A DNA stretch of 64,000 bases from Paracoccaceae bacterium (lineage in GTDB: Bacteria; Pseudomonadota; Alphaproteobacteria; Rhodobacterales; Rhodobacteraceae), in assembly GCA_020832445.1 (NCBI GenBank), contig JAFIEO010000017.1, positions 1 through 64,000 of the forward strand. Direction: 5' to 3'. Each line of letters begins with the position of its first letter. Position 1 is the stretch's first letter. The notes below the pieces were generated by a model. The model ran no database searches. It was not told the origin of the DNA and saw only the letters and a program-made list of their open reading frames with translations. The position numbers and the translations under genes are program-made. Below are positions 4,380-52,835 of the stretch, one piece after another.

Positions 4380-4853
4380 ATGACAGCACCAGATCATGCC
4401 CAGTTGAAACACATTTTGCAACGCGCACAGGTTATTGCCGTGGTGGGCGTGTCGGCCAATCCGGTGCGGCCCAGCTATTTCGTTGCGCGCTATCTGAAGC
4501 TGAAGGGCTATCGCATCATTCCGGTCAATCCCGGACTGGCGGGCCAGTCGCTGTTTGGCGAAACCGTTCTGGGCAGCATTGCAGAGTGCCCGCCGCAGGT
4601 GGATATGGTGGATATTTTCCGCAGGTCCGAACATGTGCCCCCGCTTGTGAATGAGGCGCTGGCGAATTTGCCGCAACTGCGCACAGTGTGGATGCAGATT
4701 GGCGTTCAGAATGCGCAAGCCGCCGAGACGGCCCGTGCGCGCGGTGTTGATGTTGTGGAAAACCTGTGCCCGAAAATGGAATACCAGCGCCTGTTTGGCG
4801 AATTGCGCATGGGCGGGATCAATACAGGCGTGATTTCATCGCGGTTGGATTAG
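4380..4853 (+). CDS. CoA-binding domain protein (YccU-like)
   Basis: 157 aa; IAVVGVSANPVRPSYFVARYLKLKGYRIIPVNP and VWMQIGVQN...ENLCPKMEY motifs. Confidence 0.88.
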   Translation: MTAPDHAQLKHILQRAQVIAVVGVSANPVRPSYFVARYLKLKGYRIIPVNPGLAGQSLFGETVLGSIAECPPQVDMVDIFRRSEHVPPLVNEALANLPQLRTVWMQIGVQNAQAAETARARGVDVVENLCPKMEYQRLFGELRMGGINTGVISSRLD

Positions 4854-4888
4854 ACTTGCGGGCGTGTCAGGCAGGGCTGGTTGAGTCT

Positions 4889-5117
4889 GGCCTGAAGGGG
4901 ACGTTGCTGCCATGGACAAAGCCCGCGCCAGCGGTGGGCCGGGGTCTGCCGATCCGGCATTTGAGAGGCGCAGTTTATGCCAGCTGCATACCCCTTGCTT
5001 CAATGGCTTGGCGTGTCGCTGGCCAAATCGGCAGGCCGCGGGACGGCCCACCGATGGCGCGGCGGGCTGCGCCCTTTGCTCCGCGCCTTGGGGCATTCGC
5101 GATGTCTGCAAAAGGCC
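4889..5117 (+). repeat. Interspersed nested-palindrome repeat, copy A
   Basis: Shares an indel-free core with copies B-E; GCGCCAGCGGTGGGCC...GGCCCACCGATGGCGC arms; left end GGCCTGAAGGGGACGTT, right end GCAAAAGGCC. Confidence 0.92.
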
Positions 5118-19904: not shown

Positions 19905-20135
19905 TTGTCTTTCGACGGTCATTCGGGCATGAATAAAGCCCGCGCCATCGGTGGGCCGGGGTCTGCCGATCCGACATTTGAGATGTGCAGTTTATGCAGG
20001 CTGCATACTTCTGTGCGCAAGGGCTTGGCATACCATCAGCCAAATCGGCAGGCCGCGGGACGGCCAGACCTATGGCGCGGCGGGCTGCGCCCTTGATTCC
20101 GCGCATTTGGGCTTTCCCGATGTCTTCAAAAGGCC
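19905..20135 (+). repeat. Interspersed nested-palindrome repeat, copy B
   Basis: Core aligns to A, C, D, E without gaps; left end degenerate (TGTCTTTCGACGGTCATTCG, resembles E), right end CAAAAGGCC. Confidence 0.88.
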
Positions 20136-30466: not shown

Positions 30467-30531
30467 CGCTTGCAGCGTCATGGCCGCAGGGATAACACTT
30501 GCAGGCTGACATACTGGCAAGGAAAGGCGCG

Positions 30532-31254
30532 ATGACATATTGCGTGGGGATGCTGCTGAAGGAAGGTCTGGTTTTGTTGTCGGACACGCGCACAAACGCG
30601 GGTCTGGACAATATTTCCGTATACCGCAAGATGTTCACGTTTGAGGAGCCGGGTGAACGGGTGATCGTCATGCTGACCGCCGGCAACCTGTCGGTCACAC
30701 AAACGACCCTTGCGCGTTTGAACGAGGCGATTGATGATCCCGAAGCAACGCTGGACACATCTATCATGCAGGCCGACAGCATGCTGGATGTGGCCACGAT
30801 TACCGGCGAAATGCTGTCACGGGTGACCGCAGAAACACAGGCGCGGATGGACCGGATGAATCAGGCCGCCACCGCATCGATGATTGTTGCAGGGCAACGC
30901 AAGGGCGGGCGCATGCGGCTGTTCCTGATCTATCCCGAAGGCAATTTCATCGAAGCCACCGAGGACACGCCCTATTTGCAGATTGGCGAGCATAAATACG
31001 GCAAGCCCATTCTGGACCGTGTGATTACCGCCAACACCCCCTTGGACGAGGCGCGCAAGGCAGTGCTGTTGTCGATGGACTCGACATTGCGCTCGAATCT
31101 CAGTGTGGGGATGCCGCTGGATATGGCGATTATTGAAACCAATGCCCTTCGCGTCAGCGAATACCGCCGGATCGAGGCCAATGACGAAGAATTCGCGGCC
31201 ATGTCTGCGGCGTGGTCACAAGCGCTGCGCGATGCGTTTGCGCAGATTGCGTAA
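30532..31254 (+). CDS. Anbu / proteasome-type Ntn-hydrolase (bacterial proteasome homologue)
   Basis: MTYCVGMLLKEGLVLLSDTRTNAGLDNISVYRKMFTFEEPGERVIVMLTAGNLSVTQ; Thr after Met, Asp17 and Lys32 relative to Thr1. Confidence 0.9.
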   Translation: MTYCVGMLLKEGLVLLSDTRTNAGLDNISVYRKMFTFEEPGERVIVMLTAGNLSVTQTTLARLNEAIDDPEATLDTSIMQADSMLDVATITGEMLSRVTAETQARMDRMNQAATASMIVAGQRKGGRMRLFLIYPEGNFIEATEDTPYLQIGEHKYGKPILDRVITANTPLDEARKAVLLSMDSTLRSNLSVGMPLDMAIIETNALRVSEYRRIEANDEEFAAMSAAWSQALRDAFAQIA

Positions 31255-31295: not shown

Positions 31296-31523
31296 GGCCT
31301 GAAGCAGTCATTGGGAATGCCCAAGGCGCGGAGCAAAGGCCGAAGGCCGCCGCGCCATCGGTGGGCCGTCCCGCGGCCTGCCGATTATTCTGATGGTGTC
31401 TCAAGCCTTTGATCTCAGTAGTATGCCGCCTGCATAAAGTGAACTTCACTGGCGTCGGATCGGCAGACCCCGGCCTACCGATGGCGCGGGCTTAATCCAA
31501 GCGGACAACGACAGCTTCAGGCC
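31296..31523 (-). repeat. Interspersed nested-palindrome repeat, copy C
   Basis: Reverse-orientation copy; terminal arms GGCCTGAAGC / GCTTCAGGCC perfectly complementary. Confidence 0.92.
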
Positions 31524-31547: not shown

Positions 31548-31898
31548 CTATGCATCCGGCAGCGGGGTTTGCAGTTCCTGTTCCAGAAACCGCTCGAACG
31601 CATCCAGATTGACGGCTTCGAACTGGCCGAAGGCCTGCATCCAGATGCTGGCGGCGCGCAGGGCGTCGGGTTCCAGCTGGCACCATTTGACCCGCCCGCG
31701 CTTTTCCTGACTTATCAGCCCCGCTGCGGCCAATATGCCCAGATGCTTGGAAATCGCGGCCAGCGACATGTCGAAGGGGTGGGCCACATCGGTTACGGCC
31801 ATGTCGTCTTCCAGCAGCATTGCCAGTATGGCCCGCCGTGTCGGATCGGCCAAAGCCATGAAAACCTGATCCAGTGAGGGGGCGGGGGTATGGGTCAT
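31548..31898 (-). CDS. ArsR-family transcriptional regulator
   Basis: MALADPTRRAILAMLLEDDMAVTDVAHPFDMSLAAISKHLGILAAAGLI. Confidence 0.92.
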   Translation of the reverse strand: MTHTPAPSLDQVFMALADPTRRAILAMLLEDDMAVTDVAHPFDMSLAAISKHLGILAAAGLISQEKRGRVKWCQLEPDALRAASIWMQAFGQFEAVNLDAFERFLEQELQTPLPDA

Positions 31899-32055
31899 GC
31901 CATCCTTGTTGCGCGCTAACGCCAAAAGGTCAACTGAATGGTTGAATATGGGGTTTGCTACAAATTCCGTCTTCGATGATCGCGCGCGTAGCAGGTCAAT
32001 ATTTTTATATAATTATATCAGTGCTTTGGGTTTCGGTCTGGGGTGTTTTACATGC

Positions 32056-42256: not shown

Positions 42257-42484
42257 GGCCTTTTGCAGACATCGGAAAAGCCCCAAGGCGCGGAGCAAAG
42301 GGCGCAGCCCGCCGCGCCATCGGCGGGCCGTCCCGCGGCCTGCCGATTTGGCCAGCGAAACACCAAGCCTTTGAACGCAGGAGTATGCCGCCTGCATAAA
42401 GTGAACTTCACCAATGCCGGATCGGCAGACCCCGGCCCACCGCTGGCGCGGGCTTTGTCCAAGTGTGAAGGGCAGCAAAAGGCC
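42257..42484 (-). repeat. Interspersed nested-palindrome repeat, copy D
   Basis: Terminal arms GGCCTTTTGC / GCAAAAGGCC perfectly complementary; core as in A-E. Confidence 0.93.
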
Positions 42485-49775: not shown

Positions 49776-50001
49776 GGCCTTTTGCGGTCATTCGCGCTTG
49801 GATAGCCGCGCCATCGGTGGGCCGGGGTCTGACGATCCGGCGTTAGTGAAGTTCACTTTATGCAGGCGGCATACCCCTGACTTCAAGGGATTGAATCACC
49901 ATCAGCCAAATCGGCAGGCCGCGGGACGGCCAGACCTATGGCGTGGGCCACCTGCTGCCTTTGCTCCGCGCCTTGGGCGTCCCCAATGACAACAAAAGGC
50001 C
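49776..50001 (+). repeat. Interspersed nested-palindrome repeat, copy E
   Basis: Terminal arms GGCCTTTTGCGGTCATT / AATGACAACAAAAGGCC (15/17 complementary); core as in A-D. Confidence 0.92.
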
Positions 50002-52764: not shown

Positions 52765-52835
52765 GGCCTGAAAGGGGGGCGTCGGGGCATCCCAAGGCGC
52801 GGTGTTTGTTCATAGCCCAACGTCCCCTTCAGGCC
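52765..52835 (-). repeat. Internally deleted copy F of the interspersed repeat (ends only)
   Basis: Reverse complement reads GGCCTGAAGGGGACGTTGGGCTATGAACAAACACCGCGCCTTGGG...CTTTCAGGCC: left end identical to copy A joined to the CGCGCCTTGGG right end. Confidence 0.82.

Follow-up and report, generated by a model that had tools for sequence, protein, structure and literature searches.

Between the 3′ ends of a hydrolase gene and an ArsR-type gene, which stand tail to tail in a Paracoccaceae bacterium (GenBank assembly GCA_020832445.1, contig JAFIEO010000017.1), lies a repeat, here called copy C, with outer arms that are complementary to each other. What is this sequence, and is its pairing maintained by selection? 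The window, by which we mean the whole stretch of 64,000 nucleotides analysed, holds five complete copies of the repeat (A to E, copy C being the third) and one core-less copy, F. Their positions, with those of the parts and neighbours of copy C, are collected in Table 1. Folded as single-stranded DNA, the whole element of copy C reaches −62.8 kcal/mol (z = −5.95 against shuffles, 0 of 200 being as stable). Copy F may be a deletion scar or a core-less precursor.

Table 1. Positions in the window of copy C, its parts and neighbouring genes, and the other copies of the repeat.
Feature	Position	Strand	Basis
Copy C, full element with the lineage-specific outer arms GGCCTGAAGC (beginning at 31296) ... 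GCTTCAGGCC (finishing at 31523)	31296..31523	+	read directly; genome-wide family
Copy C, conserved core, 169 nt	31321..31489	+	covariance model R1, 167.7 bits, model 1-169
Copy C, left end L, GGCGCGG; 5′ arm of hairpin 1, direct repeat of R	31325..31331	+	L/M/R covariation; hairpin 1 pairs
Copy C, middle segment M, CCGCGCC; complementary to L and R, pairings mutually exclusive	31350..31356	+	L/M/R covariation
Copy C, long stem, left arm ATCGGTGGGCCG-TCCCGCGG-CCTGCCGAT	31357..31385	+	helices 3 and 4
Copy C, long stem, right arm CGGATCGGCAGACCCCGGCCTACCGAT	31456..31482	+	stem pairing, covariation
Copy C, right end R, GGCGCGG; direct repeat of L	31483..31489	+	L/M/R covariation; site comparison between species
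Upstream gene, proteasome-type N-terminal-nucleophile hydrolase; 3′ end toward the element	30499..31254	+	ORF call, PF00227
Downstream gene, convergent, ArsR-type HTH regulator	31548..31925	-	ORF call, PF01022/PF12840
Copy A, arms TTTTG/CTTCA, non-complementary; core 4923-5091	4889..5117	-	
Copy B, decayed right arm; core 19940-20109	19906..20135	-	
Copy D, arms TTTTG/CAAAA; core 42283-42451; convergent NUDIX and phosphoglucomutase genes on either side	42257..42484	+	
Copy E, arms TTTTG/CAAAA; core 49806-49976 with the ATAGGTCT inner variant	49776..50001	-	
Copy F, outer arms TGAA/TTCA and a single GGCGCGG; core between L and R absent	52765..52835	+	

The copies in the window are members of a large family. 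A 22-nt core pattern, with up to 3 mismatches allowed, matches 116 times in the 4.08 Mb (99 contigs) of the genome that contains the window, and the reversed control pattern 0 times; the analyses of this genome are based on about 100 copies and 0.61 Mb of sequence. A covariance model of 169 positions, R1, matches 112 of 298 genomes sampled across the Rhodobacteraceae (111 genera) and 135 of 296 sampled across the order, every one of the latter belonging to the Rhodobacteraceae. In a class sample of 289 genomes, about 285 of them from other families, the sole match is the genome of the window itself. Among the matches listed, copies number at least 146 in G230, which we infer to be S2 since plasmid coordinates match, at least 140 in G199, which is HJB301 as its loci are 100% identical, at least 131 in G127 and at least 93 in G072, with 10 to 42 in each of ten further genomes. 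Plasmids of Roseinatronobacter, Salipiger and Pseudosulfitobacter also bear copies, which in the two Salipiger plasmids lie between convergent genes. A phage origin was rejected, as no phage record matches the element. The Rfam search matched no family (the best weak hit, to M23 at E = 0.22, being below gathering), and the open-access papers searched gave no description. The element is a previously uncatalogued, hairpin-forming DNA repeat of the Rhodobacteraceae, about 170 bases long.

Several features of the distribution concern the copies as neighbours of one another or of contig ends. Contigs C4, C5, C74, C91, C92, C95 and C96 start or finish inside a copy. Since many draft contigs end within copies, the repeat is a main cause of assembly fragmentation, and copies are probably undercounted. 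Head-to-tail tandem arrays of the core, which resemble BIME-type arrays, are seen at L227:1501-2122 (four copies with a period of about 152 bp), L214:1290-1669, L198:1501-1999 and, in HJB301, L279:10934-11341. Two neighbouring copies of one genome, L184:1458-1625 and L176:1398-1569 (Y0-43), have loops that are unusually alike (88%), which suggests recent copying or conversion. Near a core copy in a different genus of the Rhodobacteraceae lies a SorX sRNA gene (Rfam RF02784, L124:2818-2892).

The core carries two hairpins that are conserved across the family, and the evidence that their pairing matters comes from covariation. When 36 copies, mostly from the same genus, were aligned with plain MAFFT, there were 33 double-change cells against 9.9 in shuffled alignments, a signal that is abolished by sliding the partner by 1 to 3 columns. 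In the family-wide alignment of 73 copies, 95.2% of cells are paired (82.9% shuffled), double-change cells number 223 against 62.6 ± 6.2 shuffled and at most 37 in the slid controls, and 21 of the 30 stem pairs carry double changes, against 11.9 shuffled. Helices 3 and 4 of the long stem have 94.5 to 95.6% of cells paired in this alignment, with double changes in 13 of their 19 pairs. Because the 73-copy alignment had been fitted to the model, the count was repeated on a structure-blind alignment from 43 genomes, which gave 126 double-change cells against 30.3 ± 5.6 shuffled, the highest of 1000 shuffles reaching 45. The shuffles keep relatedness, so these counts are not probabilities, and the argument rests on the slide controls and on the breadth of genera. 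The inner stems are preserved by compensatory change across many genera. The initial annotation of the window had suggested, as a general idea, that a base-paired fold is kept by matched changes, and of the inner core this is true. It had also held that the inner stem shows no clean compensation, which is correct in this genome for the ATAGGTCT variant (matched in 1 of 20) and incorrect across the family; within the genome of the window, covariation is smaller (53 double-change cells against 26.9 shuffled).

The two ends of the core and the segment between them also vary together. L, M and R read TGGCCCGG/CCGGGCCA/TGGCCCGG in L229 and GGGTGCGG/CCGCACCA/TGGTGCGG in L231. Complementarity is 6.50 of 7 between L and M (5.87 shuffled) and 5.94 between M and R (5.20), and the identity of L and R is 5.70 (5.13), each value being equalled in 0 of 3000 shuffles. 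M is able to pair with L or with R, never with both together, and the 8-mer T(G/T)GCGCGG, or its complement, is common to all three. At the centre of the core alignment A1 (GGATnTGGC ... CATAAAG), the unpaired CATAAAG is almost invariant and the remaining loop variable; GGATTTGGC is likewise almost invariant in low-copy species. It is possible that the central CATAAAG / GGATTTGGC is a protein-binding site.

How do such copies come to be where they are? Both flanks of 27 copies of our genome were located in a 1.19 Mb sample of HJB301, where 15 of the sites hold the element and several of the rest are plainly without it; in one unambiguous example, the stop codon and the terminator on either side of our copy are both present in HJB301 as well. 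At 12 of the 15 co-occupied sites the element lies in opposite orientation, and the copies there are no more similar than random pairs, for which reasons the co-occupied orthologous spacers were withdrawn as proof of vertical descent. Likewise, in the low-copy species of the host genus (Roseinatronobacter/Roseibaca), 5 of 7 syntenic sites have the copy reversed at the same place. In a targeted search of 12 genomes, the spacer gap measured about 384-392 bp at occupied sites and 216-240 bp at empty ones, the two differing by 148-172 bp. Gain, loss and flipped orientation at the same spots suggest that the element is mobile.

The sites also record how copies are lost. In HJB301, the counterpart of the copy C site (L144, about 4727-4914) has both outer arms with one GGCGCGG between them and no core: as we read it, the core is lost between its direct end repeats, one repeat being left behind, although this form, like copy F, may also be a precursor that never had the core. 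Internal deletion decays other copies, as at site 4. At site 2, one CCGCGCAA is present in the empty spacers of two species, and in a third species CCGCGCAA flanks the core on both sides; since single-repeat empty sites could be deletions, they do not prove a target-site duplication. Between copies at shared sites the loops have a similarity of 0.667 and 0.653 for the two orientations, against 0.613 for non-shared pairs, and as this is barely higher, it does not separate in-place inversion from fresh insertion.

We consider it probable, if with moderate confidence, that copy C is an instance of a mobile DNA element, non-coding and non-autonomous, that is spread throughout the Rhodobacteraceae. 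An enzyme acting in trans would recognise the folded ends, that is, L, M and R with their shared 8-mer or its complement. If the enzyme does read the folded ends, selection on the fold would act by way of mobility. The end repeats have a palindromic GCGC, and breaking or rejoining the DNA there would lead to excision and to either orientation; copies would survive where they are least harmful, between gene 3′ ends, and would be lost by deletion between the end repeats. Mobilisation of the RAYT type was rejected, as PF01797 (Y1_Tnp, the RAYT-type transposase) has 0 matches in the genome of the window and the control genomes were positive. An autonomous parent was looked for by way of isolated arms: the 1.8 Mb sampled (0.61 Mb from this genome and 1.19 Mb from HJB301) contained neither such arms nor an autonomous copy, bar one hit at E = 0.11. 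It counts against mobility that neither a transposase nor a recombinase could be tied to the element.

Could the element instead serve the host? Gene context, as derived from a simple codon-trained gene caller, is strongly skewed. The 84 copies of the genome of the window occupy 67 convergent, 17 tandem and 0 divergent spacers, none being within a gene, against background spacers of which 30 are convergent (15%), 126 tandem and 41 divergent (p = 3e-25). For HJB301 the convergent, tandem and divergent counts are 41, 25 and 2 against a background of 67, 396 and 141 (p = 5e-19); 0 of 71 copies lie within a gene, and 38% of the convergent spacers are occupied. A looser sample from other genera, analysed with the gene caller trained on the genome of the window, is moderately convergent (14, 18 and 4, n = 36). 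Copies are almost confined to the 3′ ends of genes.

This extreme bias to 3′ ends and convergent spacers is what would be expected of a host-useful 3′-end element, akin to REP/BIME and kept by selection at each site, whether through stabilisation of mRNA 3′ ends, insulation of convergent transcription or binding of gyrase or nucleoid proteins. Convergent genes, between which transcription raises supercoiling, are reported to be frequent neighbours of REPs (PMC1525189). Syntenic copies common to several species also agree with such a role, and the occurrence in low-copy species of some copies at such common sites could mean retention for function. However, promoter avoidance alone would yield an equal bias, the element is absent from many orthologous spacers, and the copies at sites shared with HJB301, as described above, are no closer than random ones. 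Nor is the element an intrinsic terminator, a candidate that was rejected on the scarcity of T tracts after the hairpin (3 of 41 forward and 1 of 41 reverse copies); terminators elsewhere in the spacer are unaffected, separate ones being equally frequent in spacers with the element (34%) and without it (29%). We therefore regard selection at each site as an unlikely general explanation, albeit one with some claim to attention, and a host role at 3′ ends is possible for part of the copies.

A more specific form of mobility is a hairpin that recombines site-specifically, its recombinase either reading the folded DNA or being guided by the internal complement, so that the element can enter, leave and turn round between the ends of genes. 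Given the palindromic GCGC centre of T(G/T)GCGCGG, recombination at this 8-mer would both excise the core and flip it where it stands. We put this forward tentatively and think it rather unlikely in this exact form.

The strong covariation and the three-way complementarity, along with a strictly conserved length of about 169 nt and conserved unpaired motifs such as CATAAAG, would also suit a structured or bistable RNA in which L-M and M-R are competing helices of one transcript. G-U pairs in the stems, however, number 23 against 43 A-C mismatches (alignment A4) and 14 against 31 in the structure-blind alignment, and between tandem genes of the genome of the window, 9 copies have the same orientation as the genes and 8 the opposite. 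As there is neither an excess of G-U pairs nor a preferred orientation, the fold looks as if it acts at the level of DNA or is used on both strands. Moreover, the element comes without a conserved flanking promoter or terminator, a fixed neighbouring gene or a match in Rfam. A plus-strand RNA was rejected since G-U pairs do not exceed A-C mismatches; such a stem may be regarded as disfavoured, and a minus-strand RNA as possible. On the whole, the RNA reading seems improbable to us.

It is also conceivable that the complementarity is made by mutation, template switching in quasi-palindromes copying one arm onto the other. Changes do arrive as blocks (TTT to GAA), the low G-U content agrees with correction at the DNA level, and palindromes with short flanking repeats typically suffer the kind of deletion that is seen between the end repeats. 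Yet template switching should act on the outer arms too, which are often mismatched, and it leaves the conserved hairpin 1, the fixed asymmetry of the internal loop and the family-wide fixed length unexplained. We give this explanation little credence.

The outer arms themselves are the part of the element from which the initial annotation had set out, and it had taken them either for a stem under selection or for the matched terminal inverted repeats of two subfamilies. The coordinates and arm letters it gave for copies C, D, E and F are correct, and the outer arms of these four are complementary. Two copies whose outer arms it did not list depart from the pattern: copy A, a counter-example within the window, is mismatched, and copy B is decayed. 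In the genome as a whole, about 100 copies show an almost random combination of left and right terminal classes. Under strict assignment, the left/right combinations TTTTG/CAAAA, TTTTG/CTTCA, TGAAG/CAAAA and TGAAG/CTTCA occur 13, 9, 6 and 9 times (Fisher p = 0.32), and when each terminus is assigned to its nearest class the counts are 13, 11, 8 and 10 (p = 0.76). The terminal class is that of the nearest core relative in a proportion of 0.52, against 0.49 by chance (p about 0.38, both sides), and shows no link to core relatives. Random combination of the terminal variants had been named beforehand as the outcome that would speak against both proposals, and it is largely what these copies show. 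What remains is that, taken over all 13 nt, the left and right arms are slightly more alike than in shuffles (0.533 against 0.493, p = 0.008). In HJB301, 14 of 16 scorable copies are TGAAG/TGAAG, and with nearly all copies in one terminal class, its 2×2 table is uninformative. In spite of the four matching copies and the weak whole-arm excess, then, the selected stem and the matched subfamilies are both largely refuted as accounts of the outer arms, and we hold either to be extremely improbable. The arms resemble a mosaic whose variants are interchangeable. Low-copy species of the host genus have a form of about 170 bp without GGCC arms, and we infer that the high-copy Roseinatronobacter genomes acquired these outer arms later, as a feature specific to their lineage.

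How does the element, in our reading a mobile DNA repeat, compare with known ones? It belongs in kind with the REP/BIME, CIR and MITE repeats (PMC1525189, PMC2229807). REP/BIME repeats and REPINs are, like it, palindromic, extragenic and high-copy, with a bias to convergent genes, and sometimes arrayed, but their palindromic units are of 20-65 nt and the element is much longer, at 169 nt. A REP or REPIN with its RAYT would also be expected to be accompanied by a Y1_Tnp protein, which the genome of the window does not have; no GTAG or CGTC tag was noticed. The bacterial MITEs (Correia/NEMIS, RUP, ERIC) share with the element small size, non-autonomy, repetition, long stem-loops and presence or absence between relatives. 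Unlike theirs, however, the ends of its core are direct, not inverted, repeats with an internal complement. Its outer arms are inverted only in part of the high-copy lineage, no parent insertion sequence came to light in the 1.8 Mb sampled, and a target-site duplication is unproven. RIME/ABC are mosaic elements of rhizobia, which, like the element, are intergenic and palindromic and occur in Alphaproteobacteria; R1 has no match among the other genomes of the class sample, and the comparison is one of description.

The CIR, or CcrM-associated intergenic repeats of Caulobacter and Brucella (Chen and Shapiro 2003, as cited in PMC2229807), are likewise alphaproteobacterial, dispersed and strictly intergenic. 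Like the element, they have two hairpin arms with a linker, and GANTC at or in the loop of part of the copies. They are about 110 bp long, against 169 nt for the element, and while R1 finds nothing in the class genomes sampled outside the Rhodobacteraceae, this comparison is with CIR as known by description only. GANTC is present in the hairpin-1 loop of 33 of the 73 family copies, and GAATC in 21 of 95 copies from the genome of the window; as GANTC is not conserved, a CcrM methylation element was rejected. Since, for each of REP/BIME, CIR and MITE, the element either fails a tested feature or the comparison is lacking, it is described as a member of none of them.

A structured repeat that Rfam lacks is thus found in more than one in three of the genomes sampled from a large and ecologically central family, and fills up to 38% of the convergent spacers in one of them (HJB301). 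For annotation, the element supplies a model backed by covariation. Its three-way complementarity, taken with the switches of orientation at fixed sites, makes testable by what means long intergenic repeats without a transposase spread, and whether the fold matters as DNA or as RNA.
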